From assembly GCA_026196105.1 (NCBI GenBank), contig JAPHRK010000058.1, positions 1 to 56,183 of the forward strand: a stretch of 56,183 nt of DNA, in the 5' to 3' direction. Positions 17,501 through 38,527 of this stretch are shown one piece after another. The translations under genes and the position numbers were made by a program. Positions within the stretch are counted from its first letter, which is position 1. Every line of letters starts with the position of its first letter. This stretch comes from Rhodospirillales bacterium (GTDB lineage: Bacteria; Pseudomonadota; Alphaproteobacteria; Rhodospirillales; JAPHRK01). The notes beneath the pieces were generated by a model. It was not told where the DNA came from. It ran no database searches and was given only the letters and a program-made list of their open reading frames with translations.

Positions 17501-18700
17501 TTATTCTTTCAACAATTCGCCGCTAATAATGATTTTGCGCACTTCGTTGGTACCAGCACCAATTTCCATGAGCTTAATACCGCGATAAAGACGATTAATC
17601 TCAGATTCCCACAAGAACCCTGCACCCCCAAATATCTGCACCGCTTCATCAATAATCTTCTTGGAATTTTCAGCCGCAAACAAGATCGCTGCCGCTGATA
17701 TTTTGTGGATGTCACCACGGCCGCCGCCGCCTTTTTCTAAATCATTGCAAGCGACTGCGGTGCGATAGACAAGGGAACGCATGGCTTCAAGGGAGGTGTA
17801 CATTTCAGCCAGCTTCGCTTGGATCATTTGAAATGCCGCAATAGGTTTGCCAAATTGTTGGCGGGTTTTGGCATATTCTAAAGCTAGCTCTAAAGCTCTT
17901 TCAGTCGTACCAAGGGCGCTAACCGCAAAGAAAGTACGCTCTAGATCAAGGCCAGACATGACTATTGCTACGCCAGTGTTTTCTTCACCCACTAGATTTT
18001 CGGCGGGTACTTTACAATTATCAAAAACCAGCTCTCCTGTTGGGCTGCCGCGATAGCCCATTTTTGTGAGCTTCTGGGCTACGGTAAACCCAGGCATGCC
18101 TTTTTCAATAATAAAGGCGGAAATTCCTTTTGCGCCAAGGTCAGGGTTGGTTTTAGCATAAACCAACAACACGTCGGCATTAGGCCCGTTGGTGATGAAC
18201 ATCTTTGAGCCGTTGAGGATGTAATAATCCCCTTCGCGTTTGGCTGTGGTGCGCATAGAGCCCAGGGCATCTGAGCCTGCCCCTGGTTCAGTCAGGCCTA
18301 AAGCACCAATTTTTGTGCCGTCACAGAGGCCAGGGAGATATTTTTTCTTTTGGGCTTCGGTGGCGTTTCTCAGGATATTATTGACGCAAAGATTGTCATG
18401 AGCCCCGTAACTCAGGGAAATTGCTGGATTCCATTTGGCGATAGATTGCAAGATCAAGGTGCTGGCAAAAAAATCCATACCCGCTCCACCATATTCCTCT
18501 GGCACAGTAACACCTAAATAACCAACAGAGGCGAGTTTTTGATAAACATCCTCAGGCCACCATTCTTCATTGTCCATCTTCTCTTGGTAATCATAAAGTT
18601 GCTCGCGGGCGAAACGGTCTGATTGATCCAAAACTTCTTGATATTCTGGGGTTAATTCATATCCAGGGAGAGGGCCAAGTGCCCCTTCAAGGTTTGTCAT
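17501..18700 (-). CDS. Isovaleryl-CoA dehydrogenase-like acyl-CoA dehydrogenase
   Basis: A 399-residue FAD enzyme of the acyl-CoA dehydrogenase family, oxidising a branched acyl-CoA to the 2-enoyl-CoA with electron transfer flavoprotein as acceptor. SYGAHDNLCVNNILRNA, GALGLTEPGAGSDALGS, FITNGPNADVLLVYAKT and the tail YEIGAGTNEVRKI-type ending (here MEIGAGTNEVRKI) are IVD blocks. The base is expected to be the Glu in SGLDLER, the IVD-specific location, because the usual C-terminal Glu position reads GAGTNE. It is the last gene of the carboxylase operon, 16 nt after the carboxyltransferase. A citronellyl-CoA dehydrogenase role is the main alternative. Confidence 0.88.
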   Translation of the reverse strand: MTNLEGALGPLPGYELTPEYQEVLDQSDRFAREQLYDYQEKMDNEEWWPEDVYQKLASVGYLGVTVPEEYGGAGMDFFASTLILQSIAKWNPAISLSYGAHDNLCVNNILRNATEAQKKKYLPGLCDGTKIGALGLTEPGAGSDALGSMRTTAKREGDYYILNGSKMFITNGPNADVLLVYAKTNPDLGAKGISAFIIEKGMPGFTVAQKLTKMGYRGSPTGELVFDNCKVPAENLVGEENTGVAIVMSGLDLERTFFAVSALGTTERALELALEYAKTRQQFGKPIAAFQMIQAKLAEMYTSLEAMRSLVYRTAVACNDLEKGGGGRGDIHKISAAAILFAAENSKKIIDEAVQIFGGAGFLWESEINRLYRGIKLMEIGAGTNEVRKIIISGELLKE

Positions 18701-22310: not shown

Positions 22311-23105
22311 CTATTTCCCTTTGAAAGAAGCGGGGCGTTTTTCGATGAAAGCGGTAACCCCTTCTTTGAAATCTTTGGTTTTACCAAGTAGCCCTTGGAA
22401 CCCGGTTTCTAAATCTAGTTGTTCGTCGAGGCTGTTGTTGAGTGCTGCTGCCATGGAGCGTTTGATCATGCCATACGCACGGGTTGGACCTTGGGCAAGG
22501 CGTTCAGCAAGTGTAGTCGCCTCATCCATCAGTTTGTCATCTTCAACACATTTCCAAATCATTCCCCAGTCAGCGGCTTGTTGGGCGGGGATGGTGTCGC
22601 CAGTGAGGGCGAGGCCGATAGCGCGGGCAATGCCAACTTTTTGTGGAAGAAAGAAGGTGCTTCCCGCATCAGGCATCAGGCCGATACGCGTGAAAACCTG
22701 AGTGAAAGAGGCTGATCTAGCAGCCAAGATAATATCGCCTACGAGTGCAAAGCTCATACCTGCCCCAGCAGCTATGCCATTTACGGCACAAATGATGGGT
22801 TTTTCCATTTTGCGCATTTTGCGAATAAGAGGATTATAATTTTCATCCAACCCTTTGATAATATCTATATCATGAAGATCAGCAGTACCTGATTGCATTT
22901 CAACTAAATTGGCTCCAGCAGAAAAGCTACGACCAGACCCTGTTAAAATGATAGCCCTGATCTCGTCATCATTATCGATAACATTTATGGCGTCTGCCAA
23001 ATCATTGAGAATGCCACTGGATAAGGCATTCAGGCTGTCGGGTTCATTGAAGGTGATCTTCGCCACCCCGTTGGCTTTTTCAAAAAGGATGTGGTTATAA
23101 CTCAT
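22311..23105 (-). CDS. Enoyl-CoA hydratase/isomerase family protein (PaaG-like)
   Basis: A 264-residue crotonase. Start 23105 (MSYNHILFEKANG) is chosen because GGAGACA precedes it; the frame is open to 23120. The oxyanion-hole blocks are SFSAGANLVEMQ and NGIAAGAGMSFALVGD; IGLMPDAGSTFFLPQKVG and KRPASFKGK resemble PaaG-type epoxyphenylacetyl-CoA isomerases, in which an Asp replaces one hydratase Glu. By position it fills the place of the 3-methylglutaconyl-CoA (LiuC) or isohexenylglutaconyl-CoA (AtuE) hydratase in carboxylase operons. Sequence and context thus point to different activities, and the activity is unresolved. Confidence 0.85.
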   Translation of the reverse strand: MSYNHILFEKANGVAKITFNEPDSLNALSSGILNDLADAINVIDNDDEIRAIILTGSGRSFSAGANLVEMQSGTADLHDIDIIKGLDENYNPLIRKMRKMEKPIICAVNGIAAGAGMSFALVGDIILAARSASFTQVFTRIGLMPDAGSTFFLPQKVGIARAIGLALTGDTIPAQQAADWGMIWKCVEDDKLMDEATTLAERLAQGPTRAYGMIKRSMAAALNNSLDEQLDLETGFQGLLGKTKDFKEGVTAFIEKRPASFKGK

Positions 23106-23135
23106 TGTCTCCATTTCCATTTTTTATTTATCAAT

Positions 23136-23149
23136 CAACCAGTCGGTAG
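23136..23149. promoter_or_regulatory. Putative TetR operator in the carboxylase operon promoter
   Basis: CAACCAGTCGGTAG matches the palindrome at 23887-23900 in 12 of 14 positions. It lies between the TetR stop and the first crotonase start, 31 nt upstream of the latter. On the minus strand TTTAAC and ATAAAT with a 17-nt spacer could form -35/-10 boxes around it. Confidence 0.6.
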
Positions 23150-23197
23150 TTAAATTTAGTAAATATTATGCAAGATTTAAAATATAGCCTTTAAACT

Positions 23198-23836
23198 TTA
23201 GCCTAACTCTTTGAAAGCCTTTTTCTTCAGCAGGGAGCGCAGCAAATGTTGCAATGTTTCTTCCCTGAAATCAGGTAAGGCTTTACCCGGGGCCCACTCC
23301 ATAACCTTCCCAATAGTAGGAAGCCCTAAGACGAAATAGCTGATTGAGCCAATAACGTGATAGAGGAATAGCTCTGCATTGCATGACCTGAAACTGCCAT
23401 GTTTTTGCCCCTTAGCGATCACCCGGCTGAGGCGGTACATTGAATCCGCAAGATGCCAACGTTCAATGTCATTAACCCGGTCTAGGTTATCCATCATTTC
23501 GCGCATAATAATTCGGGCGTAATCGGTGCGTTCCTGTGCCCAATCGAAATAGGCGTTGTAAAGGGCAACGAAACGATCAACATCGCTACCGCTCACATTT
23601 TCAACATGAACTACCACCTCGCCAATCTTCTCAGCAATGCGGTCAATTACCGCGACATAAAGGCGGCCTTTGCTCGGAAAGTGATAAAGGAGTGAAGCGT
23701 TGGAAATGCCGACTTCGCCCCCAATTTCGCGCAATCCTGCACCGTAGAAACCTTTTTCAGCAAAGAGCCTTTCAGCTGCTTGAAGGATTTTTTCTTTGGT
23801 TTCCGCACCTGCGGTTGTCTGCCTTGAACCTGCCAT
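23198..23836 (-). CDS. TetR-family transcriptional regulator of the acyl-CoA island
   Basis: A 212-residue regulator with the TetR helix-turn-helix at residues about 12-60 (KEKILQAAERLFAEKGFYG, ISNASLLYHFPSKGRLY) and a C-terminal ligand-binding domain with extra tryptophan/tyrosine-rich helices (RIIMREMMDNLDRVNDIERW). TetR regulators of this kind in acyl-CoA gene sets commonly sense an acyl-CoA. It is divergent from a crotonase gene and upstream of the carboxylase operon; matching palindromes lie in both promoters and in that of the Liv importer operon, so it is the likely local repressor of all three. Confidence 0.9.
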   Translation of the reverse strand: MAGSRQTTAGAETKEKILQAAERLFAEKGFYGAGLREIGGEVGISNASLLYHFPSKGRLYVAVIDRIAEKIGEVVVHVENVSGSDVDRFVALYNAYFDWAQERTDYARIIMREMMDNLDRVNDIERWHLADSMYRLSRVIAKGQKHGSFRSCNAELFLYHVIGSISYFVLGLPTIGKVMEWAPGKALPDFREETLQHLLRSLLKKKAFKELG

Positions 23837-23886
23837 AATATCCCCACCATTTTTATGTTTATCGGAAATTAGGTTGTTTTTTTTGC

Positions 23887-23900
23887 CTACCAGTTGGTAG
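23887..23900. promoter_or_regulatory. Putative TetR operator in the TetR/crotonase divergent promoter
   Basis: CTACCAGTTGGTAG is a perfect palindrome of 6-bp arms with a GT centre. It lies 50 nt upstream of the TetR start and 47 nt upstream of the crotonase start, so one bound repressor could control both directions. Confidence 0.7.
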
Positions 23901-23947
23901 AGTTAACATCAATTTGAGTTGAAAAGTCAAGCAGGGAGCGAAAAATC

Positions 23948-24712
23948 ATGTCAGTTTCAGTGGAAAAAAGAGGGCCTGTAACCACGATTATCCTTGATCG
24001 ACCGGATGTTCGTAACGCTGTTGATGGGCCGACAGCACAGGCTTTAGCAGATGCTTTTAGAGAATTTGAAAATGATGAAACGGCAAAAGTTGGGGTTTTT
24101 TATGGTTCTAACGGAACTTTTTGTGCTGGAGCTGATCTGAAAGCCTTTGCGGATGTCTCCCGCCGAAACCGATTGGAGTTGGAGGGTGACGGCCCTATGG
24201 GGGTGAGCCGGATGAGGCTGTCAAAACCGGTCATCGGGGCTATTTCGGGGTATGCCGTGGCTGGGGGAATGGAATTAGCTCTGTGGTGTGATATGCGAGT
24301 CGTTGAGGAAGATGCAGTTTTTGGCATCTTTTGTCGCCGCTGGGGTGTCCCCTTAATTGATGGTGGTACGATTCGCCTTCCAAGAATTATTGGCATGGGG
24401 CGAGCTCTGGATCTCATCCTCACCGGGCGGCCTGTAAAAGCTGATGAGGCATATTTGATGGGTTTAGCAAATCGAGTTGTTGCTAAAGGGACGGCACGTG
24501 AAGAGGCTGAAGTGCTAGCTTTGGAAATTTCAAACTTTCCACAGTTATGTATGAAAAGTGACCGCCAATCAGCTTATGAGCAACAAGGATTGTCGATGGA
24601 GGAGGCTCTGCGTAACGAGTTTGCCCTTAGTGTTCAGGTTGTTGAAAAAGAAAGTATAGCAGGAGCGGCGGTCTTTGCAGGAGGAAAGGGGCGTGGAGGG
24701 TCTTTTGATTAA
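23948..24712 (+). CDS. Crotonase/enoyl-CoA hydratase family protein
   Basis: A 254-residue crotonase with GGGAGCG upstream of the ATG. The CoA-binding and oxyanion-hole blocks are present (NGTFCAGADLKAF, ISGYAVAGGMELALWCDMRV). The position that usually carries the first catalytic Glu of hydratases reads FGIFCRRWGVPLIDGGTIRL, with Cys/Arg instead, which marks a large subgroup of uncertain activity rather than a classical hydratase. It is divergent from the TetR gene and may be co-transcribed with merR downstream, although merR has its own palindrome. Confidence 0.87.
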   Translation: MSVSVEKRGPVTTIILDRPDVRNAVDGPTAQALADAFREFENDETAKVGVFYGSNGTFCAGADLKAFADVSRRNRLELEGDGPMGVSRMRLSKPVIGAISGYAVAGGMELALWCDMRVVEEDAVFGIFCRRWGVPLIDGGTIRLPRIIGMGRALDLILTGRPVKADEAYLMGLANRVVAKGTAREEAEVLALEISNFPQLCMKSDRQSAYEQQGLSMEEALRNEFALSVQVVEKESIAGAAVFAGGKGRGGSFD

Positions 24713-24715
24713 GAT

Positions 24716-24733
24716 GATTACCTAAAGGTAATC
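24716..24733. promoter_or_regulatory. Putative MerR operator upstream of merR
   Basis: GATTACCT-AA-AGGTAATC is an 18-bp perfect palindrome lying 3 nt after the crotonase stop and 41 nt before the merR ATG. The same 7-bp arms recur at 32706-32721. A shorter palindrome, TTACCGGTAA, follows at 24753-24762. Confidence 0.7.
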
Positions 24734-24774
24734 CTATTGCCTTTAGGGGAAGTTACCGGTAATGTTTTTCCATT

Positions 24775-25218
24775 ATGGATAAATTATACACTGTTACAGA
24801 CTTAGCGACTGAATTCGCAATTACTCCGAGAGCGGTGCGCTTTTATGAATCAAAAGGCCTGATTACTTCGCAAAGAGTAGGACGTACCCGCATTTATACA
24901 AAGCGAGAACGTGCTCGGTTAAAGATTATCCTGCGCTCAAAACGGGTGGGTTTTACCCTTGCCAATGTGAAAGCTTATTTGGAACTTTATGACACTGACC
25001 ATAGCAAGCTAAAGCAAATCCTTGTGTTGCTCTCTGGCAGTCGGCAACGGATTACTGAGCTTCAGCAGCAACAAGATGAACTTAAAGTCATGCTTGATGA
25101 GTTGTCCAAAATGGAAACAGAGGCAATTGGTGATCTTAAGGCGCAAGGACTTGACCCTGAAGAAGCCCTCGCAGAATTTGAGGCATCCTTAAGCGAAAAT
25201 TCAAAGGCTGCCGAATAA
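24775..25218 (+). CDS. MerR-family transcriptional regulator
   Basis: A 147-residue regulator with the MerR winged helix at residues 5-70 (YTVTDLATEFAITPRAVRFY, ESKGLITSQRVGRTRIYTK) and a dimerisation coiled coil at about 75-125 (glutamine/leucine-rich). It lacks the cysteines of metal-sensing MerR proteins and resembles the LiuR type that controls branched-chain amino acid and fatty-acid catabolism. A palindrome upstream of its own gene also appears in the promoter of the racemase/acyl-CoA dehydrogenase operon, which suggests its regulon. Confidence 0.9.
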   Translation: MDKLYTVTDLATEFAITPRAVRFYESKGLITSQRVGRTRIYTKRERARLKIILRSKRVGFTLANVKAYLELYDTDHSKLKQILVLLSGSRQRITELQQQQDELKVMLDELSKMETEAIGDLKAQGLDPEEALAEFEASLSENSKAAE

Positions 25219-25247
25219 GCCTTTTAAATTTTAAGGGAGAAAAGCAT

Positions 25248-25772
25248 TTGGGTGTTTGGCTAGGTCTCGCCAGGATTTCAATTACACGACTTTTAGGAAA
25301 GTCCGTAAATTTGCTCGATGAGGTCACCCTTGATCGGCGCGTTATGCCTTTTGATCTTGACCCTAATATGCATATGACCAACTCGGTTTATTACACCTTG
25401 ATGGATTTAGGGCGAATTGAGCACCTCCTTTATTCTGGGACGATGGAGGCTTTGTTCAAGCGCAGGATGGGCCCGGCTATTGGCGGTATTGTCTTACGTT
25501 TTCGCCGTTCCTTAGCGCCATTTCAAAAATATAAAGTTGTTACTAAGCTCGCTGGTTGGGATGACAAGTGGCTTTATTACGAGCAACGCATCGAATCCGG
25601 TGGGGATGCTTATGCTTTGGCCTATTCTCGCCTTGCATGTACGGGAAATGGGGGCGCTGTTCCTATTTCGGAAGTCTTGAAATTTATGAATTTTGAAGGT
25701 GTTTCTCCCGATTTAGGTGGCATGCCTGAACGACTTGAGGCTGCTTGTGGGGCGTTAAAGAACTCGCCTTAA
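25248..25772 (+). CDS. Hotdog-fold acyl-CoA thioesterase-like protein
   Basis: A 174-residue protein beginning at TTG 25248, supported by AAGGGAG upstream. RRVMPFDLDPNMHMTNSVYY is the 4-hydroxybenzoyl-CoA-thioesterase-like motif with a catalytic Asp and the following N/H residues, and IGGIVLRFRRSLAPFQKY is the central strand pair. It resembles THEM6-like and FcbC-like thioesterases. It lies 29 nt after merR and is likely co-transcribed, perhaps to release CoA from accumulated intermediates. Confidence 0.8.
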   Translation: MGVWLGLARISITRLLGKSVNLLDEVTLDRRVMPFDLDPNMHMTNSVYYTLMDLGRIEHLLYSGTMEALFKRRMGPAIGGIVLRFRRSLAPFQKYKVVTKLAGWDDKWLYYEQRIESGGDAYALAYSRLACTGNGGAVPISEVLKFMNFEGVSPDLGGMPERLEAACGALKNSP

Positions 25773-25876
25773 TCTAAATAATTTCTCAAAAATTACACAT
25801 CTTGTTGATTAAAAAATAAAAATCAGCTTATGATTTGCTTATAAAAAGAAAAATATTACACAAAGTAAAATTCTGC

Positions 25877-25913
25877 TTGACCCGACCGTTTGGTTGAACA
25901 TACCTTTCGGTCA
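25877..25913 (+). promoter_or_regulatory. Liv-operon promoter with two tandem TetR-type operators
   Basis: TTGACC (25877-25882) is a good -35 box. CGACCGTTTGGTTG (25883-25896) and ATACCTTTCGGTCA (25900-25913) share ACC-N2-T-Y-GGT with the palindromes at 23136 and 23887 and are spaced 17 nt centre to centre. The first fills the spacer and the second covers the -10 position, as expected for repression. The rest of 25773-25986 is AT-rich with nothing else recognised. Confidence 0.65.
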
Positions 25914-25986
25914 AACAAGTTACCGTGGGGTAATTTAGCCGACTTAAATTTAAGAATAACGGCTTAAAACAGGGAGCAATATTAAA

Positions 25987-26856
25987 GTGGAACTGCTGCA
26001 ACTTTTAGTCAGCGGCATAGCGCAAGGATGTGTTTACGGACTCATCGCCTTGGGTTTTGTGTTGATTTATAAAGCGACTGAGATTGTCAACTTCGCCCAA
26101 GGCGATATCATGATGCTCGGCGCTTTTTCAGCCTTTTCGTTTATCGGCATCGCTGGAATGCCCTATTGGATAGGCTTTCCTTTAGCGATCGTTTCAATGG
26201 CATTATTTGGTTATTTGCTGGATTGGCTCGTTTTACGGCGGGTTATTGGGCAACCGCAATTTGCTATCGTTATTCTCACCATTAGCCTTGGATTCATTTT
26301 CCGAGCGGTAGCTGGGGCGATATGGGGGCATGAACCTCTTGCCTTTGACACGCCATTCGGAGAAATGGTTATTGAGTTTAAAGGCGTGATTATCGCAGGC
26401 GATAACGCCGCCATTATTGTCGGCACCTTGGTCCTATCGGCGTTACTTTATTTCTTTTTCCGCTTCACCAAAGTTGGTGTCGCTATGCAGGCAGCTTCAC
26501 AAAACCAGTTAGCGGCCTATTATATGGGCATTCCGGTAAAAGTTATTTTCTCCTTGATCTGGGCTATTAGTGCAGCCGTTGCCACTGTTGCAGGGGTCTT
26601 GCTTTCCCCTGTTTCCCTCATCGATACTGAAATGGGATTCATCGGTATTAAGGCCTTTGCTGCTGCTGTTATCGGCGGGTTTGGTAGTCTCCCGGGAGCT
26701 ATTATCGGTGGTCTGATTATTGGTGGTTCAGAGCAGATGGCGGGAGCTTTCTTGCCAACTGGCTTTAAAGAAATCGCCGCCTTTGTCATTATGCTGGCGG
26801 TCCTCACCTTGCGACCCGAAGGGTTGTTCGCTCAAATTCATCGTAAGAAGGTGTAA
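25987..26856 (+). CDS. livH: Branched-chain-type ABC transporter permease LivH
   Basis: A 289-residue inner-membrane permease with about eight hydrophobic helices, starting at GTG. The opening LLVSGIAQGCVYGLIALGFV and EIVNFAQGDIMMLGAF are LivH blocks, and AAVIGGFGSLPGAIIGGLIIG is the cytoplasmic loop that contacts the ATPase. It begins a gene set for a hydrophobic amino acid-type importer (HAAT family). The accompanying acyl-CoA ligase suggests a carboxylic acid substrate rather than an amino acid. Confidence 0.92.
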   Translation: MELLQLLVSGIAQGCVYGLIALGFVLIYKATEIVNFAQGDIMMLGAFSAFSFIGIAGMPYWIGFPLAIVSMALFGYLLDWLVLRRVIGQPQFAIVILTISLGFIFRAVAGAIWGHEPLAFDTPFGEMVIEFKGVIIAGDNAAIIVGTLVLSALLYFFFRFTKVGVAMQAASQNQLAAYYMGIPVKVIFSLIWAISAAVATVAGVLLSPVSLIDTEMGFIGIKAFAAAVIGGFGSLPGAIIGGLIIGGSEQMAGAFLPTGFKEIAAFVIMLAVLTLRPEGLFAQIHRKKV

Positions 26857-26862
26857 GCGGAC

Positions 26863-27939
26863 ATGCGTATTCTTTTCAAAAAAACTTATGAAGACGATAT
26901 CCGTATTCTGAAACACAGTGGATATGTTTTTTGGTACGGCCTTCTAATTACTGCTCTTTTTGCTGCTCCCCTTTTTCTAGATGACTTCTATTTAGGAGAA
27001 TTGGCGCAGGTTTATATTTTCGCTATTGCTGGGGTCGGCCTCATGCTTTTAGTGGGCTATACGGGACAGGTTAGTCTTGGTCATGCGGCTTTCTTAGCGA
27101 TTGGGGCATATTCGAATGCTTGGTTAATCAGCAAAGGGGTGCCTTTTCTGATTTCTTTCCCCTTAGCGGGAGTTATTTCAGCACTTGCAGGAATGATAAT
27201 TGCTATTCCGGCCTCAAGGATGACCGGAGTATACTTGGCGATTGCCACACTCGCTTTTTCTATCATCGTCGAGCAAATTATGGTCCGCTGGGAAAGCGTT
27301 ACGGGCGGCTTTAAAGGAATGACAGTCGATGCTCCTGAGATTTTCGGGTACCAGTTTTGGGATACTTGGGCCTTCTATCTAATGTGTTTGATCGTTTTGC
27401 TCTTTGTCATTGTTGGTGCGCTCAATCTTTTGCGCTCCCCTACGGGGCGGGCTATGGCCGCAATTCGGGATTCAGAAGTTTCTGCCCAAAGCCTTGGAAT
27501 TAACCTAGCTAAATATAAATCCATTGCCTTTGCTATTAGCGCTGGCGTGACTGGTTTAGCAGGGGCCCTTTTAGGCCATAAGGTTAACTACCTTTCTCCT
27601 GATTCCTTTAATATGATCGTTTCAATCCAATTGTTGTTGATGGTTGTTGTTGGGGGACTTGGGTCCATCCATGGTGCAATTTATGGTGCGATCTTCATTG
27701 GGGCCTTGCCTCAATTGCTTGCTATTTTGCGCGATTATTTGCCTCCGGTCATTTCCCAAACACCAGGTTTAGAGCCTGGAATTTTTGGTCTTATTTTGGT
27801 GTTGTTTATTCTCTTTGAACCATTGGGACTTTATGGGAGGTGGCGCAAGATGAAGCTCTATTTTGACACCTTCCCGCTTTATCGCAAATCGACCTTCAAA
27901 CGTCAGAAAAGCTATCTAAAAACGGAGCGAATGAAATGA
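26863..27939 (+). CDS. livM: Branched-chain-type ABC transporter permease LivM
   Basis: A 358-residue permease 6 nt after livH. GVGLMLLVGYTGQVSLGHAA, YLAIATLAFSIIVEQ and MVVVGGLGSIHGAIYGAIFI are typical LivM blocks; about ten membrane helices are visible. A basic C-terminal tail (YRKSTFKRQKSYLKT) extends beyond the last helix. The stop overlaps the livG start in ATGA. It pairs with LivH to form the membrane channel. Confidence 0.92.
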   Translation: MRILFKKTYEDDIRILKHSGYVFWYGLLITALFAAPLFLDDFYLGELAQVYIFAIAGVGLMLLVGYTGQVSLGHAAFLAIGAYSNAWLISKGVPFLISFPLAGVISALAGMIIAIPASRMTGVYLAIATLAFSIIVEQIMVRWESVTGGFKGMTVDAPEIFGYQFWDTWAFYLMCLIVLLFVIVGALNLLRSPTGRAMAAIRDSEVSAQSLGINLAKYKSIAFAISAGVTGLAGALLGHKVNYLSPDSFNMIVSIQLLLMVVVGGLGSIHGAIYGAIFIGALPQLLAILRDYLPPVISQTPGLEPGIFGLILVLFILFEPLGLYGRWRKMKLYFDTFPLYRKSTFKRQKSYLKTERMK

Positions 27940-28700
27940 GTTTCTTTCGAGCCGAAAACCTTGCTATTCAATTCGGTGGCATCCGCGCCGTTGATGGGGT
28001 TAGCTTTCACGTCAATGAAGGTGAAGTCTTCACTCTGGTAGGGCCTAATGGCGCTGGCAAGACGACAATTTTTAACCTCATTAGCCGAATTTATGATCCT
28101 ACTGAGGGAAAAATTTTTCTCAATGATCATGATATTACTGAGATTGAAGCTCACCGGATTGCCTCGCTAGGTATTGCGCGGACATTTCAGAATATTGAAC
28201 TGTTCGAACATGCGACTGTACTGCAAAACCTTCTGGTTGGGCGTCATTGCCACCATAAATCTAAGCTATGGAGTGAAGTCTTCTTTACCAAATCTACTCG
28301 AGTGATGGAACATGCTCACCGGGAGAAAGCTGAAGAGGTTATCGACTTTCTTGATCTGCAACATTACCGCAACCAGATGATTGCTAACCTGCCTTATGGG
28401 GTACGCAAAGTGGTTGAGGTTGCCAGGGCCTTGTGTACAGAACCAAAGCTGCTTCTCCTTGATGAACCTGCTTCGGGCCTCAATGTGGAAGAGACAGAAG
28501 ATATGGCTTTCTGGATTGAGGATATCAAAAAAGATTTAGGCATTACGGTGATCATGGTTGAACATGATATGAGTTTGGTTTCTGCTGTTTCTGATCGAGT
28601 GTTGGCCCTTAATAACGGGCGTATGTTGTCTGAAGGGACACCAAGTGAAGTTCAATCGGACCCTGAAGTGATTAAAGCTTACCTGGGGGTGGATGAATAA
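27936..28700 (+). CDS. livG: ABC transporter ATP-binding protein LivG
   Basis: A 254-residue ATPase. Walker A is GPNGAGKTT, the Q-loop is ARTFQNIELF, the signature is the LivG-type LPYGVRKVVEVARAL instead of LSGGQ, Walker B is LLLLDEPASGLN and the switch His is in VIMVEHDMSLV. Its start overlaps the livM stop and its stop overlaps the livF start by one base. It energises uptake together with LivF. Confidence 0.94.
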   Translation: MSFFRAENLAIQFGGIRAVDGVSFHVNEGEVFTLVGPNGAGKTTIFNLISRIYDPTEGKIFLNDHDITEIEAHRIASLGIARTFQNIELFEHATVLQNLLVGRHCHHKSKLWSEVFFTKSTRVMEHAHREKAEEVIDFLDLQHYRNQMIANLPYGVRKVVEVARALCTEPKLLLLDEPASGLNVEETEDMAFWIEDIKKDLGITVIMVEHDMSLVSAVSDRVLALNNGRMLSEGTPSEVQSDPEVIKAYLGVDE

Positions 28701-29473
28701 TGAGTGACATTCTTCTCAAGGTACGAAACATTGAAACTTACTATGGTCCCATCATGGCGATCCGGGGAGTTTCATTAGATGTGACAGAAGGCTCAATTGT
28801 CACTATTTTGGGTGGCAATGGGGCTGGGAAAACCACCATTTTGAAAACCATCTCAGGTGCTATGGATCCGCAAAAAGGGATTGTGACTTTTGATGGTGAA
28901 GAAATCCAAAAACGGGACCCGGATTGGGTAGCTAGAAAAGGCATTGCCCATGTTCCTGAAGGTCGGGAAGTTTTCCCCTTCCTTTCAGTAAAAGAGAATC
29001 TGATGATGGGGGCCTTTACCCGTAAAGACCGAGAGGAAGTTCTAAAAGATTTAGAATTGGTTTACCACTACTTCCCGGTTTTGAAAGAGCGTGAAGAGCA
29101 GGCCGCGGGTTACCTTTCAGGTGGTCAGCAACAGATGTTAGCGATTGGGCGTGGCCTGATGGCCAAACCTAGATTGATGCTGTTGGATGAACCTTCGTTG
29201 GGACTCTCTCCTCTGTTGGTGAAAGAGATTTTCGAGATCATTGTCCGCCTCAATAAAGAGCAAGGGGTGACCATGCTTCTTGTGGAGCAAAATGCAAACA
29301 TGGCCCTAAAGACAGGTGAAACGGGGTACGTGCTTGAAGTAGGGCGAATCGTTATGAGTGACAAATGTTCGATTCTTTTAGAAAGTGATGACGTCAAAGA
29401 ATTTTACTTGGGCATGAAAGAAGAAGGTGCTCGGGGCAATCGACGTTGGAAAAAACGGAAAACCTGGAGATAA
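28700..29473 (+). CDS. livF: ABC transporter ATP-binding protein LivF
   Basis: A 257-residue ATPase. Walker A is GNGAGKTT, the signature YLSGGQQQMLAIGRGL, Walker B LMLLDEPSLGLS, and the switch His position reads LLVEQNANMAL, Gln in place of His as in other LivF proteins. The last 15 residues are unusually basic (GNRRWKKRKTWR), an extension beyond the usual LivF end. The acyl-CoA ligase start follows 1 nt after its stop. Confidence 0.94.
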   Translation: MSDILLKVRNIETYYGPIMAIRGVSLDVTEGSIVTILGGNGAGKTTILKTISGAMDPQKGIVTFDGEEIQKRDPDWVARKGIAHVPEGREVFPFLSVKENLMMGAFTRKDREEVLKDLELVYHYFPVLKEREEQAAGYLSGGQQQMLAIGRGLMAKPRLMLLDEPSLGLSPLLVKEIFEIIVRLNKEQGVTMLLVEQNANMALKTGETGYVLEVGRIVMSDKCSILLESDDVKEFYLGMKEEGARGNRRWKKRKTWR

Positions 29474-29474
29474 T

Positions 29475-31319
29475 ATGATGGACGGCGTAATCCAATACGA
29501 ACCCGTCATTATCGACGGCTGTGATACAATCCCCAAACTGTTCAGGCAGCGGGTAGAAAAACATGGCGATAAGATTGCCCTGCGGGAAAAAGATTTAGGC
29601 ATTTGGCGCTCAGTGACCTGGAAAGAATATGGTCAAAAAGCCAAAGAAATTGGCCTTGGCTTGATTTCCTTGGGGCTGGAGCCGGGTGAACGGGTTTCTA
29701 TCCTCAGTGAGAATAATAAGGAATGGCTATTCGCTGATTTGGGCATTATTTCTGCTGGGGGGGTCTCCTCAGGTGTATACACAACCGATTCTGCCAAACA
29801 GCTTCAATATCTCCTGACAGATTCAGATTCAAAATACTTGCTGGTGGAAAATGATGAGCAGTTAGATAAGATTCTTGCGGTCCGGGACAACGTGCCGGAG
29901 CTGAGAAAAATTATTGTTATGGATATGGAAGGCCTTCGTGACTTTGACGATGAGCAGGTGATCTCAATTAATGACCTTTATGATCGGGGTCGAATTTATG
30001 GTGAGAAAAACCCGGATGTCTGGGATAGCCGCATTGAAAATGTGAAACAGGAAGACCTTGTGATTCTCATCTATACCTCTGGCACCACAGGGCCGCCAAA
30101 AGGGGCGATGATCAATCATCGAAATATCTTATTCCAAAGTCAGAATGTGCTTAATTATTTGGTCTATGGCGAAGGGGATGAACAACTTTCCTTCTTGCCC
30201 TTGTACCACATTGCAGAACGGACATTCACGGTTTTCTATCCGCTGATGACGGGCTCTACAGTTAATTTTGTTGAAGGGCCTGATACGGTTTTTGAGAATA
30301 TTCAGGAAGTTTCGCCAACCATCTTTTTCGCGGTTCCACGCATTTGGGAGAAGTTTTATTCTGGCATTACAATTCGTCTGAAAGATGCCTCCAAATTTAG
30401 CCAATGGGCTTATCATAAAGCTATCACTATTGGTCATGAAGCGGCAGAATATGAGTTGGAAAACAAGCCTGTTCCCTCTGGGCTAGCTTTTAAACGGTGG
30501 CTTTCAAGTAAGCTGGCATTGCGCAATATTAAAATTCTCCTGGGCCTTGATCGCATCAAGTGGGCCATTACAGGTGCGGCGCCGATCTCACCGGATCTGA
30601 TTAAGTGGTTTATGGCCCTTGGGATAGATATGTACGAGGTCTATGGACAAACGGAAAATACGGGTACTGCGACGTCCAACCAGCCTGGAAAAAACAAAAT
30701 CGGGACCATCGGTCCCGCAGCCCCTAATACGGAAGTGAAAATTTCTGATCAGGGGGAAATTCTCCTGCGGGGGCCACATGTCTTCATGGGTTATTTGAAC
30801 AAACCAGAGAAGACAGCTGAGACTATTATGGATGGTTGGCTTCACACAGGTGATGTTGGTAATATTGATAATGAAGGCTTTATCAAAATTACGGATCGTA
30901 TGAAGGATATTATCATTACGGCAGGGGGTAAGAATATCACCCCAAGCGAATGGGAGAACCAACTTAAGTTCTCGCCTTATATCTCTGATGCGGTAGTGAT
31001 TGGTGATAAACGCAAGTTTCTTACCTGTCTGGTTATGATCGACCAGGAGAATGTTGAGAAATTTGCTCAAGATGCCAATGTGCCTTTCACCAACTATGCT
31101 AGCCTCTGCAAAGCTGATGAAGTGGTTAAGCTCATTGGGGAAGAAGTTGAGCGGGTAAATAAGAATTTTGCCCGGGTTGAGACAGTCAAAAAATATCGCT
31201 TGATTGATCAGCTCCTCACGGCGGAAGATGATGAATTAACACCAACCATGAAGCTCAAAAGGAGCTTTGTGAACGAGAAATACAAGGATTTAATCGACGC
31301 TATGTATGCGGAAGCTTAA
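29475..31319 (+). CDS. AMP-binding long-chain acyl-CoA synthetase (FadD15-like)
   Basis: A 614-residue adenylate-forming ligase that converts a carboxylic acid to its CoA thioester using ATP. The ATG at 29475 with TGGAGATA is used; an extended frame upstream overlaps livF. Motifs: VILIYTSGTTGPPKGAM (phosphate loop), YEVYGQTENTG, GWLHTGDVGNID and KDIIITAGGKNITPSEWEN. The GKNITPSE form and total length place it among long-chain-type ligases. Being embedded between importer ATPases and binding protein, it probably activates the imported acid. Confidence 0.93.
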   Translation: MMDGVIQYEPVIIDGCDTIPKLFRQRVEKHGDKIALREKDLGIWRSVTWKEYGQKAKEIGLGLISLGLEPGERVSILSENNKEWLFADLGIISAGGVSSGVYTTDSAKQLQYLLTDSDSKYLLVENDEQLDKILAVRDNVPELRKIIVMDMEGLRDFDDEQVISINDLYDRGRIYGEKNPDVWDSRIENVKQEDLVILIYTSGTTGPPKGAMINHRNILFQSQNVLNYLVYGEGDEQLSFLPLYHIAERTFTVFYPLMTGSTVNFVEGPDTVFENIQEVSPTIFFAVPRIWEKFYSGITIRLKDASKFSQWAYHKAITIGHEAAEYELENKPVPSGLAFKRWLSSKLALRNIKILLGLDRIKWAITGAAPISPDLIKWFMALGIDMYEVYGQTENTGTATSNQPGKNKIGTIGPAAPNTEVKISDQGEILLRGPHVFMGYLNKPEKTAETIMDGWLHTGDVGNIDNEGFIKITDRMKDIIITAGGKNITPSEWENQLKFSPYISDAVVIGDKRKFLTCLVMIDQENVEKFAQDANVPFTNYASLCKADEVVKLIGEEVERVNKNFARVETVKKYRLIDQLLTAEDDELTPTMKLKRSFVNEKYKDLIDAMYAEA

Positions 31320-31431: not shown

Positions 31432-32607
31432 ATGAAGAAGTTATATACAGGTATTGCCTTTGCTGCAGGGGCTGTTGCCCTCACCGTAACTGGGACAGCC
31501 ATGGCTGGACAACGGGGCGTTTCTGACAAAGAAGTCGTCTTTGGAATGCATACTGCTTTGAGCGGTCCTGCAAGCCCATGGGGTGTTGGGGCTGCTGCGG
31601 GTATCCGGATGCGTTTTGACGAAATTAATGCTGATGGTGGTATTCACGGTCGTAAGCTTAAGATCATTATTGAAGATCACGGCTATCAAGTACCTAAGGC
31701 TATCCAAGCTGCCAACAAACTGATCAACCGCGATAATATTTTCGCCATGCTCGGGGCTCTTGGAACCCCTATGAACAATGCCGCCATGAAGATGCAGTTG
31801 GCTAAAAAAGTGCCAAACCTGTTCCCCTTTACAGCAGCTCGTTCAATGCATGAGCCATACCATAAACTGAAATTTGCTTTGTTCTCAGATTACTATGATC
31901 ACAACCGGGCAGGTATTAAGTATTTTGTTGAAAAACATGGTAAAAAAGCCGTGTGTGCCATGTATCAGGATACGGATTTTGGTCATGAAACCCGTGATGC
32001 AGCTCGCGATCAAACTAAAGCTATGGGCATGAAGCTCGTTGCTGAAGCAACTCACACCCCTCGCGACACTGACTTCACCTCTCAGCTTGGTAAAATGAAA
32101 AAAGCTGGTTGTGATTTGATCGCTCTTGGGACCATTATTAAAGACACCATCATCATCAATGCCACAGCTAAGAAAATGGGTATGGCTGATGTGGTATTTG
32201 TTGGTAACACAGCTTCTTACGATCAGTTTACTGCGGGCGCTAAAGGCGGAATTGCTGGTGGTTACTATGCACTTTCCGGTTTTGAATATGCATACTCAGA
32301 CACCAGTGCTGACATAATCAAAGCCTGGGCTAACCGTTTTAAAGAAATGAACGGTAAAGAGCCTAATGGTGCTGCTCAGCTAGCATATTCTTCTGCTGAC
32401 ATGGTAGTTCAAGCTTTGGATAAAGCTGGCAAGAACTTGACCACTGACTCTTTCATTGCCGCTCTTGAAGGTATTCAAGGCTATCGTGATATTTTCGGTG
32501 CAGAGTTTAGCTTTAGCGCCACTAATCACAAAGGTTCAGATACTTCTATGCTCAGCCAAATTGTTGATGGGCGTTGGAAACTTCTTGAGAAAAACTTAGG
32601 TTACTAA
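31432..32607 (+). CDS. ABC transporter substrate-binding protein (LivK-type)
   Basis: A 391-residue periplasmic binding protein. The first 25 residues are a signal peptide cut after AMA. The mature part has the type I periplasmic fold of the Leu/Ile/Val family (VVFGMHTALSGPASPWGVGA, GIRMRFDEINADGGIHGRKL, IEDHGYQVPKAIQAANKLI). ACMYQDTDFGHETRD and LYYALSG-like segments mark the hinge and second lobe. It is the last gene before an intrinsic terminator and completes the importer. Homologues in other acyl-CoA gene sets bind aromatic or aliphatic acids; the ligand is not readable from sequence. Confidence 0.93.
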   Translation: MKKLYTGIAFAAGAVALTVTGTAMAGQRGVSDKEVVFGMHTALSGPASPWGVGAAAGIRMRFDEINADGGIHGRKLKIIIEDHGYQVPKAIQAANKLINRDNIFAMLGALGTPMNNAAMKMQLAKKVPNLFPFTAARSMHEPYHKLKFALFSDYYDHNRAGIKYFVEKHGKKAVCAMYQDTDFGHETRDAARDQTKAMGMKLVAEATHTPRDTDFTSQLGKMKKAGCDLIALGTIIKDTIIINATAKKMGMADVVFVGNTASYDQFTAGAKGGIAGGYYALSGFEYAYSDTSADIIKAWANRFKEMNGKEPNGAAQLAYSSADMVVQALDKAGKNLTTDSFIAALEGIQGYRDIFGAEFSFSATNHKGSDTSMLSQIVDGRWKLLEKNLGY

Positions 32608-32627: not shown

Positions 32628-32664
32628 AAAGCCCGGTTCCAGAGATGGGGCCGGGCTTTTTTGT
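32628..32664 (+). terminator. Intrinsic terminator after the Liv importer operon
   Basis: AAAGCCCGG (32628-32636) pairs with CCGGGCTTT (32651-32659), followed by a T-run. It lies 20 nt after the binding-protein stop and separates the importer operon from the next promoter. Confidence 0.88.
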
Positions 32665-32700: not shown

Positions 32701-32729
32701 TTGCGATTACCTATAGGTAATTTTATAAA
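32701..32729 (+). promoter_or_regulatory. Promoter of the beta-oxidation operon with MerR-type palindrome
   Basis: TTGCGA (32701-32706) and TATAAA (32724-32729) form -35/-10 boxes with a 17-nt spacer. The 16-bp palindrome ATTACCTATAGGTAAT (32706-32721) fills the spacer and shares both 7-bp arms with the palindrome upstream of merR. A degenerate copy of the left arm (GTTACCTAT) precedes at about 32686. Confidence 0.7.
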
Positions 32730-32783
32730 AAAATAAATGAAGCTAAATAGCTCAAATAGTTATTAAATATGGGAGATATAGAC

Positions 32784-33974
32784 GTGGCAGGACGTCCTAA
32801 ACCGTTAGAAGGAATCACCGTTCTTGATCTGACCAGATTGTTGCCTGGAGGGTTATGTACCCAACATCTCGCAGATATGGGTGCAGAAGTAATCAAAGTT
32901 GAAGATACGGGGGCCGGAGATTATGCCCGTACCCTTGGGGCGCTCAAAACCGAGATGTCCCCCTTTTATCATTCCACCAACCGCAATAAAAAATCAGTCA
33001 CTCTCGACCTCAGTAAGGAAGAGGGCGTAAAGCTTTTCCTCAAAATGGCTGAGTCTGTCGATATCGTAATTGAAGGGTTTCGACCAGGCGTGGTTGATCG
33101 CCTTGGAGTTGGATTTGAAGCTGTTAAAGCCGTTAATAAAGGTATCGTTTATTGCTCTCTCTCTGGTTATGGGCAAACAGGCCCTTGGCGTTTGAAAGCC
33201 GGGCATGACCTTAACTATCTCTCAATTTCAGGTATTGCCGACCAAGTAGGTAACCGAGGAGAAGCGCCACCTTTAAATAATTTCCAGGTTGCTGATCTAG
33301 CGGGGGGAACCTTGAGTGCTGCTATGGGAATTCTGGCAGCAGTGATTGATAAACTTCGTACAGGTGAAGGTCGTTATGTAGATATTTCCATGACCGATTG
33401 CGCTTTCGCTCATACCATTGCGCCGATGGCAGCGCTCAGCACGTTTGGCAAAACTCCAGAGCGGGGAGCTGATATGCTGACGGGTGGTTTGCCTTGTTAC
33501 AGTATATATGAAACCAAAGATGGGCGTTATATGGGCGTTGGGTCTTTGGAGAAAAAATTCTGGGAAATGACCTGTGAGGCGATTGGCCGCCCTGATTTGA
33601 AACCTAAACATTTTGTCGCTGGGCAAGAAGCTATTGATGTAAAGGCTGAGGTCGCTGAAGTTTTCAAAAGCAAGACTCAAGATGAGTGGGTTGAAGCGTT
33701 TAAAGACTGTGATAGCTGCGTCACCCCTATCTTGAATTTGGAAGAGGCCATGTATCAAGAACAACTGGTTGCTCGAGATATGATTATTACCGTTGAAGAC
33801 CCTGCCGATGGCCCTCTTCGCCAAACGGCCTTCCCGGTTAAATTCAGTGACGATGATACTGTCTTAAAAAATCCAGCACCACGCCAAGGTGAGCAAACCG
33901 ATGAGATCCTCTCTGGCTTGGGCTTAAGCGATGCAGACATCGCGGCCCTACGTGAGAGTAAAGTTATTCTGTAG
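32784..33974 (+). CDS. CaiB/BaiF-family protein, alpha-methylacyl-CoA racemase-like
   Basis: A 396-residue family III CoA-transferase-fold protein. The start is GTG 32784 (VAGRPKPLEG), because GGGAGAT lies at the right distance; the upstream ATG at 32769 overlaps that site. LDLTRLLPGG, CTQHLADMGAEVIKVEDTG, AGHDLNYLSISG and FQVADLAGGTL match alpha-methylacyl-CoA racemases, in which the His of GHDLNYL and an Asp in the later ADLAGG block act as bases. A racemase epimerises 2-methyl-branched acyl-CoA so that it can enter beta-oxidation. CoA transfer is the alternative activity. It is the first gene of the operon. Confidence 0.85.
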   Translation: MAGRPKPLEGITVLDLTRLLPGGLCTQHLADMGAEVIKVEDTGAGDYARTLGALKTEMSPFYHSTNRNKKSVTLDLSKEEGVKLFLKMAESVDIVIEGFRPGVVDRLGVGFEAVKAVNKGIVYCSLSGYGQTGPWRLKAGHDLNYLSISGIADQVGNRGEAPPLNNFQVADLAGGTLSAAMGILAAVIDKLRTGEGRYVDISMTDCAFAHTIAPMAALSTFGKTPERGADMLTGGLPCYSIYETKDGRYMGVGSLEKKFWEMTCEAIGRPDLKPKHFVAGQEAIDVKAEVAEVFKSKTQDEWVEAFKDCDSCVTPILNLEEAMYQEQLVARDMIITVEDPADGPLRQTAFPVKFSDDDTVLKNPAPRQGEQTDEILSGLGLSDADIAALRESKVIL

Positions 33975-33985
33975 GAGAAACAGTC

Positions 33986-35122
33986 ATGTTAAGCCGTAAG
34001 GTATATGAAGAAGATCATGAAATGTTCCGTGATACGGTACGCCGATTTGTTGAAGATGAAATCAAGCCTTATCATGAGCAATGGGAAAAAGACGGACAGA
34101 TTTCACATGAAGCTTGGCGCAAAGCGGGTGAAACAGGCCTTCTCTGTGCTCCGATGCCAGAAGAATATGGCGGCTCTGGAGTGGATTTTCGTTTTTCAGC
34201 TATCGTGATCGAAGAGCTTATGAAAGCGGGGGCTTCTGGCCCTGGTTTCTCGCTGCATTCTGATATCGTTGCGCCTTATATTCTGCATTACGGTAGTGAA
34301 GAACAAAAGAAGAAGTGGTTGCCTAAAATGGCGACAGGGGAAGTTATTACCGCCATCGCTATGACTGACCCTTCCGCGGGCTCAGACCTCCAAGGGATTA
34401 AAACCCGCGCGGTTCTGGATGGAGACGAATATGTAATCAATGGGTCCAAGACTTTTATTACTAATGGCCAAATGTCTGGTCTTTATATTGTTGTCTGTAA
34501 AACAGACCCCAGTAAAGGTGCTGCTGGAACCAGTTTGATCTTGGTAGAAGAAGATCGCCCTGGATTTAGCAAAGGCCGCAACTTAGATAAACTGGGCATG
34601 AAAGCTCAGGATACCTCAGAACTTTTCTTTGACGATGTCCGGGTGCCAAAAGAGAATTTGCTCGGCGAAGAGAATAAAGGTTTTGCTTATCTGATGCAGG
34701 AATTGCCTCAGGAAAGGCTGACCATTGCTATTATGGCGATTACCAGCGCCAAAGCTGTCTTTGAGCAAACCGTTGAATATACCAAAGATCGGCAGGCTTT
34801 TGGTAAGCCAATTCTCGCTCAGCAAAATACCCGCTTCAAACTTGCTGAAGTCAAAACAGAAATTGAAGTGGGTCAGGCCTATGTTGACCGCTGCTTAGAG
34901 GCCCATGTTGCGGGTGAATTTACCGTCGAAGATGCGGCTGCAGCAAAGCTTTGGACATCAGAAATGCAGGGCCGGGTTATAGATCAGTGTTTGCAACTCT
35001 TTGGCGGATACGGCTATATGTGGGAATACCCCGTAGCACGTGCCTACGCCGATGCTAGAGTACAGCGCATCTATGGCGGCACCTCTGAAATTATGAAAGA
35101 AATTATTGGCCGTGGCCTTTAG
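33986..35122 (+). CDS. Acyl-CoA dehydrogenase
   Basis: A 378-residue FAD-dependent dehydrogenase catalysing the first oxidation of beta-oxidation. FLAVIN-site blocks are [15 protein letters not shown] and [18 protein letters not shown]. The catalytic Glu is in [10 protein letters not shown] near the C-terminus, the position used by short/medium-chain and long-chain acyl-CoA dehydrogenases, unlike the IVD-type protein at 17.5 kb. It begins 11 nt after the racemase-like gene. Chain-length preference is not readable by eye. Confidence 0.93.
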
Positions 35123-35151
35123 GCTTAGGCAGAGTACAGGAGATAGTTACA

Positions 35152-36357
35152 ATGACTGATGCATATATTTTCGATGCTGTTCGTACGCCGCGCGGCAAAG
35201 GCCGCAAAGACGGGAGCCTCCATGAGGTTACCCCAACGACTCTAGCCGCTCATGTCTTAGAACGTTTGCGTGATCGGAATGACTTAGATACCTCCCTCAT
35301 TGATGATGTGGTTCTGGGTTGTGTCGAGCCAGTCGCTGAACAAGGCGCGGTTATTTCTCGTACTGCTGTTTTGATGGCTGATTATGATGAGAAAGTCGCT
35401 GGAACAGTGGTGAGCCGTTTCTGTGCATCAGGTCTTGAAGCGGTTAATACCGCAGCGGCAAAAGTTAAAGCGGGTGAAGCCCAAATGACAATTGGTGGCG
35501 GTGTTGAATGTATGTCACGTGTCCCCATGGGTTCCGGTGGAGGTGCTTACTGGAGTGATCCTAAGGTTATGGACCAGCTGTACTTTGTGCCTCAAGGAAT
35601 TAGTGCTGATCTTATTGCGACCAAAAATGGCTATACCCGTGACGATGTTGATGCCTATGCTGTTGAATCGCAAAAACGGGCGGCGAATGCATGGGAAAAT
35701 GGTTATTTTAAAAACTCAATCGAGCCTGTGAAAGATCAGTTTGGTCAAGTCATCCTTGAGCGGGATGAGCACATGCGTCCCGATGCTTCTATGCAGTCCA
35801 TGGGGGCTCTCAACCCTGCCTTTGAAGGAATGGGTGGTTTGGGTTTTGATAGTGTTGCGATCCAACGATATCCAGAAATTGAGAAAATTAATCACGTTCA
35901 CACAGCTGCAAACTCATCCGGAATTGTTGATGGTGCAGCCGGTGTCTTGATTGGTACGAAAGAAGCTGGTGAAGCCATGGGCCTTAATCCTCGGGCACGG
36001 ATAAAAGGACAAGCTTCTATTGGCTCTGAGCCAACCATCATGCTGACAGGACCGGCCCCATCAGCGCGAAAAGTTCTTAAAAACGCCAAGATGGAATCCA
36101 AAGATATTGACCTGTTTGAACTCAACGAAGCTTTTGCTTCAGTGGTTCTGCTCTACATGCAGGAAATGAATGTTACCCACGATAAGATCAACGTTAATGG
36201 CGGTGCTATCGCTATGGGCCACCCCTTAGGGGCAACAGGCGCCATGATCCTTGGCACAGTTTTAGATGAGTTGGAACGGGCTGATAAAGAAACCGCTCTG
36301 ATCAATCTCTGTGTCGGCGGCGGCATGGGTACAGCAACCATTATTGAACGCGTTTAA
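35152..36357 (+). CDS. Acetyl-CoA C-acyltransferase (thiolase, FadA-like)
   Basis: A 401-residue thiolase that cleaves 3-ketoacyl-CoA to acetyl-CoA (or propionyl-CoA if the chain is methyl-branched). The nucleophilic Cys is in [12 protein letters not shown], the His in [15 protein letters not shown] and the second Cys in [27 protein letters not shown] is the usual start. It precedes the FadB/FadJ-like gene as in the trifunctional beta-oxidation system. Confidence 0.94.
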
Positions 36358-36376
36358 GGAAGAAGGAATAAATCAA

Positions 36377-38512: not shown

Positions 38513-38527
38513 GGGAGTTTATGTGAA

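Follow-up and report, generated by a model that had tools for sequence, protein, structure and literature searches.

For the control of acid catabolism in bacteria, regulators of the TetR and the MerR family have been described. This paper deals with a TetR-family regulator and with the palindromes of the type ACC-N4-GGT in the promoters around it, identified among acyl-coenzyme A (acyl-CoA) genes on contig JAPHRK010000058.1 of a Rhodospirillales bacterium (assembly GCA_026196105.1; the whole stretch of 56,183 nucleotides analysed is called the window). Among the published operators compared, the closest to the window sites is that of PfmR (TTHB023) from Thermus thermophilus HB8, given as 5'-TACCGACCGNTNGGTN-3' (Agari et al., as quoted in the consulted part of PMC7022988). 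PfmR is a member of the TetR family, for which that part of the article describes autoregulation, targets in fatty acid and phenylacetate metabolism, and two sites in some promoters. Its site holds ACC-G-N-T-N-GGT, the same core as in the window site O3a (Table 1). The PfmR core ACCGRYCGGT and the window sites have ACC-N2-T-N-GGT in common but differ in the outer bases, and the PfmR targets named in the same part of PMC7022988 are different genes, with no carboxylase or Liv importer among them.

LiuQ and FadP of betaproteobacteria, as well as PsrA, are TetR regulators predicted by comparative genomics to control branched-chain or fatty acid degradation, the first two being regarded as unique to betaproteobacteria (PMC5343134, the part consulted). 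The PsrA model NF053516 fits the window TetR protein weakly, with 50.5 bits compared to a cut-off of 300. AtuR (RdmA) of Pseudomonas is likewise a TetR repressor of a terpene or branched acyl-CoA cluster with two inverted repeats (PMC9973270, the part consulted). Its operator AGCAAGCGCTTGG, given in the same source, was rejected as a counterpart because it is a different word from the ACC-N4-GGT of the window. Five words of this operator type, 12 and 14 letters long, were searched for in the literature and none was found, which carries little weight because such motifs are often given only in figures.

In proteobacteria, the MerR-family regulator LiuR controls the leucine liu operon. The LiuR motif is taken here to be ACGT-N2-ACGT, and on this basis the relatives of a MerR-family protein encoded in the window are called LiuR-like. 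The frame of the site assigned to the window protein, TTACsTNNAsGTAA, resembles the sites of these relatives, and MerR domains are present; however, the half-site is ACCT instead of ACGT, and the liu-like genes of this genome are located on another contig (C57), away from the window merR gene. By type, the system of the window is a predicted local TetR regulon, a known form of control for catabolic clusters.

Candidate operators of the TetR protein

Four 14-mers sharing the core ACC-N2-T-Y-GGT in three promoters had been reported in the initial annotation. All four were recovered at exactly the positions given there (O1, O2, O3a and O3b in Table 1) and are intergenic, in three regions. O1 is located 31-44 bp upstream of the likely start codon of the hydratase gene at 23105, where an ATG behind GGAG coincides with residue 6, the first residue of the NF004635 alignment. 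O2 lies roughly halfway between the ATG of tetR (23836) and that of the crotonase gene (23948). In the Liv promoter, a TTGACC (25877-25882) and an ATACCT (25900-25905), read by eye, are separated by 17 bp, of which O3a fills the first 14, and O3b starts at the ATACCT hexamer. The possible third copy in this promoter does not appear in the list of the 25 highest matrix scores for the window.

Table 1. Candidate operators, look-alike palindromes and genes of the acyl-CoA island
Feature	Position	Strand	Sequence	Remark
Candidate operator O1	23136-23149		CAACCAGTCGGTAG	before enoyl-CoA hydratase/carboxylase operon (minus strand)
Candidate operator O2	23887-23900		CTACCAGTTGGTAG	in tetR/crotonase divergent region
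Candidate operator O3a	25883-25896		CGACCGTTTGGTTG	before Liv operon
Candidate operator O3b	25900-25913		ATACCTTTCGGTCA	17 bp downstream of O3a; weaker flanks; not matched by CNACCNNNYGGTNG
Possible third weak copy, Liv promoter	25920-25933		TTACCGTGGGGTAA	ACC-N4-GGT with TTACC/GGTAA arms, without T-Y
Look-alike palindrome	24718-24731		TTACCTAAAGGTAA	before merR; probable MerR operator
Look-alike palindrome	32707-32720		TTACCTATAGGTAA	before CaiB/beta-oxidation operon; probable MerR operator
Acyl-CoA dehydrogenase	17501-18700	-		family searches
MCC/PCC-type carboxyltransferase subunit, 535 amino acids	18717-20324	-		PF01039
Separate biotin carboxyl carrier protein, 169 amino acids	20329-20838	-		PF00364
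Biotin carboxylase subunit, 492 amino acids	20826-22304	-		family searches
Enoyl-CoA hydratase/isomerase, first gene of carboxylase operon	22311-23120	-		true start probably 23105
TetR-family regulator, 212 amino acids	23198-23836	-		PF00440, E 6.9e-13; presumed binder of O1-O3
Crotonase/enoyl-CoA hydratase, divergent from tetR	23948-24712	+		NF006108, 419 bits (cut-off 273)
MerR-family, LiuR-like regulator	24775-25218	+		PF13411/PF09278
4HBT_2 thioesterase-like protein	25248-25772	+		PF13279
LivH, LivM, LivG, LivF type importer genes (permeases, ATPases)	25987-29473	+		family searches
AMP-forming acyl-CoA ligase, overlaps livF	29427-31319	+		PF00501; NCBIfam FadD11-like
Branched-chain-amino-acid-type substrate-binding protein	31432-32607	+		family search
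CaiB-type CoA-transferase, acyl-CoA dehydrogenase, thiolase, FadJ-like protein, NAD-binding oxidoreductase	32769-39280	+		family searches

The four sites are very probably operators of the TetR protein encoded beside them, as judged from the DNA upstream of its homologues. A scan of the genome_contigs set with this protein gave 43 loci, the best long match being 37% identical and short matches of the DNA-binding domain reaching 53%. In 16 of the 17 best homologues (L001-L017), an ACC-N4-GGT palindrome with at least 6 of 8 pairs was found within 300 bp upstream, whereas control tiles from these loci had one in 16 of 810 cases and the stretches preceding other open reading frames (ORFs) in 5 of 154. 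When at least 5 pairs were allowed, sites were present at 22 of the 43 loci. Further relatives came from searches of the same class (18 of 385 genomes at E <= 1e-16, own genome included) and the same order (10 of 100 at E <= 1e-10, own genome included, the nine others as weak matches). Forty-five upstream regions of relatives were inspected, and 30 contained a site with at least 5 pairs, a count that includes the copy pair L015/L088 and the far relatives L045, L047 and L051.

The words are shared within groups of relatives. CTACCGATCGGTCGGTAG precedes tetR in all six Desulfobacterales relatives (L002-L007), and an ACCGACCGATCGGT-type word does so in L078, L079 and L081. Records whose titles name Halieaceae, Woeseiaceae and other groups have CTTACC-N4-GGTAAG there, often in two copies. 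The cores of the window sites also recur exactly: that of O1, read as ACCGACTGGT, in the operators of L008 and L083, that of O2, read as ACCAACTGGT, upstream of the TetR homologue in L013, and that of O3a, ACCGTTTGGT, in L010 and L089.

From these relatives a symmetric matrix was built which contains no window site. It comprises 38 sites of 26 relatives: the 40 sites with at least 6 pairs in the 45 upstream regions, minus three of L088 (the copy of L015) and one of the far relative L051, plus one 5-pair site each of L075 and L014, added by hand. In the window, O2 ranked first (15.9), O3a second (14.2), O1 fourth (9.1) and O3b fifth (8.7); the third rank, at 43565, falls inside the ORF 43295-45082. 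Scores of at least 8.6 are expected 0.67 times per window according to 60 simulations, which were used instead of the own-genome background (196,906 positions), since the latter consisted of stretches chosen for matches and is biased upward. A tree of 40 proteins, displayed with midpoint rooting, places the window TetR in a group of 32 rows (support 92/89), in which 26 of its 31 relatives bear a site; the tree left out L088, L077, the far low-scorers L035, L049, L050, L052 and L053, and L018-L034 and L036-L043.

The genome itself was scanned with an extended pattern, CNACCNNNYGGTNG, for which three window sites served as the template. It matched 36 places in 3.92 Mb, of which the three in the window (O1, O2 and O3a) are intergenic and are the only ones outside ORFs. 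The other 33, all examined, are inside ORFs of at least 80 amino acids (22 and 11 in two checks), as defined by the analysis's own ORF caller; the least secure of these ORFs have 98 and 106 amino acids.

The protein has the properties of its family. The predicted structure is a TetR-like all-helical fold (pLDDT confidence score 84.5), the TetR_N helix-turn-helix and the all-helical ligand domain are both present, and a palindromic operator in the own promoter, another family trait, is predicted at O2. The 50 matches listed by Foldseek all have titles or names of TetR-family regulators. RutR, Bacillus subtilis FadR and a Clostridium fatty-acid regulator are found at similar scores, so that the fold does not name the ligand. 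Chain 3vpr, which we take to be PfmR, gave a weak match (E 1.7e-07), below many other TetR proteins. Eighteen NCBIfam equivalog families of TetR regulators (PsrA, BetI, RutR and others) matched and were rejected as names, none reaching its curated cut-off. In the own genome, no other TetR protein was matched at E <= 1e-10.

Several results weigh against the operator assignment. The closest homologues are only 35-39% identical, and the identity of the operator is therefore derived at a distance. Five members of the window protein's tree group lack such a site (L001, L076, L085, L091, L093), among them L076, its nearest tree row. At the 26 remaining genome_contigs loci, many of them matches of the DNA-binding domain only, a site with at least 5 pairs was present in just six. 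AACC-N4-GGTT sites also occur upstream of more distant TetR genes (L045, L047, L051), so another TetR could bind. The scores of O1 and O3b, 8.7-9.1, are near those of chance hits in coding DNA. A consensus promoter scan of 23050-26050 found 2 promoter-like sites compared to 4.7 expected, and no sigma-70 promoter at any operator. O2 and the Liv-promoter sites are the safest candidates, and the carboxylase site O1 is the least safe.

A divergent tetR/crotonase pair with a site in between, as in the window, was also found in L009, L011, L012 and L016 (hydratase identified by tblastn). L080 and L082 have this arrangement too, the crotonase having been recognised by eye. Of the six Desulfobacterales relatives, five (L002, L003, L005-L007) have matches of the acyl-CoA dehydrogenase type and of other beta-oxidation types downstream of tetR and in the same orientation. 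In L004, where the contig ends, there are hydratase and FadJ-like matches only. Across the tetR operators of L008, L010, L013, L014, L017, L083, L084 and L089, the N-terminus of a Rieske-type-oxygenase-like gene was read by eye. This gene stands in the place taken by the crotonase in L011, L012, L016, L080 and L082; in L084 it is about 1 kb away.

A second palindrome and the MerR protein

Two further palindromes, at 24718 and 32707, differ from each other by one central base over 16 and are unlike O1-O3. They are probably MerR operators, a variant of the LiuR-like TTACGTNNACGTAA type. The pattern TTACCTNNAGGTAA occurs exactly at three places in the genome, these two and C31:45991, which is inside an ORF. 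Allowing one mismatch added 11 places, giving 14 in all compared to 6 for the reversed control. Among six of the 11 that were inspected, four are in ORFs, and C58:8682 is directly before a gene for a MerR paralogue. On contig C36 (39998-40011; L158), the one-mismatch palindrome TTCCCTATAGGTAA is located outside ORFs and precedes an acyl-CoA-dehydrogenase-like gene (40114-41937), so that the MerR regulon may extend past the island.

In the class, 121 of 385 genomes, own included, were matched by the window MerR, and the best of these were examined further. Sites of the TNACGTNNACGTNA type (pattern TNACSTNNASGTNA) were found upstream of 24 of 31 MerR relatives, comprising 29 class loci and two paralogues of the own genome. 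Of the latter, the C58 paralogue has mixed ACCT/ACGT half-sites; the C43 paralogue (L155, approximately 93489-99330), which is 55% identical, heads a merR-thiolase-FadB-acyl-CoA dehydrogenase run with TGACGTTAACGTCA directly upstream. Among the sites listed, only that of the window has ACCT-type half-sites on both sides. The window MerR thus probably reads a shifted LiuR-like word that has come to resemble the TetR word. A mixed half-site, TGACGTATAGGTAA, between the ACGT type and the ACCT type of the window, is present upstream of merR in L121, the locus of a 52% identical MerR relative. Between the crotonase gene and merR, at about 24720-24748, CCTAAAGGTAATCCTATTGCCTTTAGG can be read by eye as a 12-bp imperfect hairpin which overlaps the MerR-type palindrome; no T-run follows directly.

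Since both palindromes fit the MerR protein, the island probably has two regulators. One regulator for the whole island, which would go beyond the genes named in the initial annotation, was not borne out: the MerR-thioesterase genes and the operon for the CaiB-type protein, acyl-CoA dehydrogenase, thiolase and FadJ-like protein carry a different palindrome. It is rather unlikely that all ACC..GGT palindromes of the island, including these two, are bound by the same TetR protein as one regulator of five promoters. The relatives' TetR matrix does give 7.8 at 32707 and 5.1 at 24718, and in L017 CCTACCTATAGGTAGG precedes the gene for the TetR homologue. However, the near-identity of the two palindromes and their difference from O1-O3, the position of one of them before merR itself, and the frame kept in common with the TTACGTNNACGTAA-type sites of the MerR relatives all argue for MerR. 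Both had been considered as TetR operators, an assignment that was put at a lower probability after the sites of the MerR relatives had been identified.

The carboxylase operon

The window encodes a carboxylase of the methylcrotonyl-CoA or propionyl-CoA carboxylase (MCC/PCC) type. For its carboxyltransferase subunit, the nearest solved structures are 9tps, named propionyl-CoA carboxylase beta, followed by methylcrotonyl-CoA carboxylase beta chains. A leucine-type cluster is present on C57, with a carboxyltransferase 53% identical to that of the window, a 3-hydroxy-3-methylglutaryl-CoA lyase above its cut-off, and a protein of 673 residues, in which positions 9-460 form a biotin carboxylase region and whose length suggests a fused carrier. 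The window carboxylase is therefore the second one in the genome. Liv-type uptake, ligation, dehydrogenation, carboxylation and hydration would suit a branched or isoprenoid-like acid as substrate of the window acyl genes.

The separate carrier protein was used as a marker of the island in the class and was found in 11 of 385 genomes at E <= 1e-20, own included. The ten other loci (L163-L172) were examined over about 20 kb each. In all ten, a carboxyltransferase 63-67% identical to that of the window is located beside the carrier, while a biotin carboxylase was matched in seven and an acyl-CoA dehydrogenase in seven. Adding to the counterpoints above, none of the ten had a TetR match or an operator at the carboxylase genes over these stretches. 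Four matrix hits of at least 8.6 were found, one each in four loci, none at a carboxylase gene start; two of the ten genomes (G180 and G357) have a TetR relative elsewhere. The link between TetR and the carboxylase is consequently not conserved: either it is of recent origin in this lineage, or O1 matches by chance. Our confidence in the operator assignment, which had been slightly higher, was lowered a little for this reason and is still fairly high. The initial annotation had named lack of conservation of the motif in these promoters as an outcome that would speak against it; the motif is conserved in the tetR promoters of the best homologues, and is not conserved at the carboxylase genes of the class relatives.

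It is unlikely that O1 is a chance match and that the operators are confined to the tetR/crotonase and Liv sites. This explanation would account for the middling matrix score of O1 and for the ten genomes in which the carboxylase module has neither such a site nor a TetR relative. Yet O1 fits CNACCNNNYGGTNG and is, apart from O2 and O3a, the sole match outside an ORF, its core recurs in the operators of L008 and L083, and its distance from the likely start codon is that given above.

The regulon model and further explanations

The carboxylase, crotonase, Liv and ligase genes plausibly form one TetR regulon, as the operator type precedes the TetR homologues and no second such protein was matched in the genome. 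From sequence comparison we infer TetR binding, repression, a ligand, co-regulation and operon structure as follows. A TetR dimer would bind the palindrome C-N-ACC-N4-GGT-N-G in three promoters, namely that of the hydratase/carboxylase operon, its own divergent tetR/crotonase promoter and that of the Liv importer/acyl-CoA ligase operon, the last with two sites 17 bp apart and perhaps a third. By analogy with known TetR repressors of acid catabolism, the bound protein would most likely block transcription until it is released by binding an acyl-CoA or the pathway's free acid, and the genes for uptake, activation, carboxylation and hydration would then be switched on together. The MerR-thioesterase and CaiB/beta-oxidation promoters would probably be under the neighbouring MerR via the look-alike TTACCTNNAGGTAA. 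With regard to the initial annotation, in which carboxylation, hydration, uptake and activation were all ascribed to a single local regulator, probably the TetR protein, the operators upstream of its homologues speak for this view, while the carboxylase part is weakened by the missing conservation.

Such a regulon and operator are predicted here for a TetR clade which no NCBIfam model names at cut-off. The prediction connects a Liv-type importer and an acyl-CoA ligase with a second carboxylase of the MCC/PCC type, one whose biotin carboxylase and carrier are split. The inducer of the TetR protein, once identified, would point to the substrate of the carboxylase pathway. The two look-alike operators provide a small, direct case in which to ask how neighbouring regulators avoid cross-talk.

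Binding of the sites by another TetR-family protein of the genome is improbable. The occurrence of the ACC-N4-GGT core before the more distant TetR genes would be in line with it, and related words are shared by PfmR and SbtR of Thermus (PMC7022988, the part consulted). On the other hand, the tetR promoter contains one of the sites, 26 of the 31 relatives in the protein's own group have this operator type, and beyond this locus no CNACCNNNYGGTNG match lies outside an ORF. About as improbable, or slightly more so, is a role of the TetR protein as activator or dual regulator at some of the promoters. The results presented here fit activation and repression alike, and the promoter scan called no promoter near the sites; repression is nevertheless suited by O3a and O3b, which cover the spacer and the -10 position of the promoter read by eye, and by O1, 31 bp before the likely start codon. 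In addition, studied TetR-family regulators are mostly repressors (PMC3511530, the part consulted).

Chance occurrence of the motif was assessed in the window and in the genome. The 10-mer ACC-N2-T-Y-GGT matched the window 8 times compared to 2.68 expected, a number reached in 1 of 100 shuffles. Genome-wide, the bare 10-mer gave 276 matches compared to 370 for the reversed-pattern control and is not enriched, for which reason it was rejected as evidence. A random frequency in the genome, regarded in the initial annotation as a refutation, was accordingly found for the bare 10-mer, but not for the extended pattern CNACCNNNYGGTNG in its intergenic places. The three promoter regions (77, 111 and 214 bp) contain ACC-N4-GGT five times. 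Of 400 simulated promoter sets, 218 produced an inverted half-site pattern of some kind that had four or more copies and was present in every region, and 0 of 400 did so when at least two G/C were required in the half-site, a restriction set afterwards. Clustering of a short common word by chance is thus already disfavoured and very improbable: the missing enrichment of the 10-mer, the choice of the motif after inspection of the sequence and the 218 simulated patterns would agree with it, but with the independent matrix of the relatives these sites make up four of the five highest-scoring window positions, and no simulation gave a pattern with G/C-rich half-sites.

A broader scheme is tentative and rather less likely than its opposite. 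In it, a scattered TetR subfamily, from loci of Alpha- and Gammaproteobacteria and Desulfobacterales with proteins 23-39% identical to the window TetR, would share CTTACC/CTACC-N4-GGT and control acyl-CoA catabolism, and would have captured in this island a carboxylase module that lacks it elsewhere. The operator of the paired MerR would have shifted from TTACGT to TTACCT, so that TACC half-sites might be read by two families with possible cross-binding, and the island would be split into uptake, activation and carboxylation on one side and beta-oxidation on the other.

Past the gene for the substrate-binding protein, at 32628-32659, a strong terminator-like hairpin of 14 pairs with the tail TTTGTTGACC is present, which is consistent with the end of the Liv operon.

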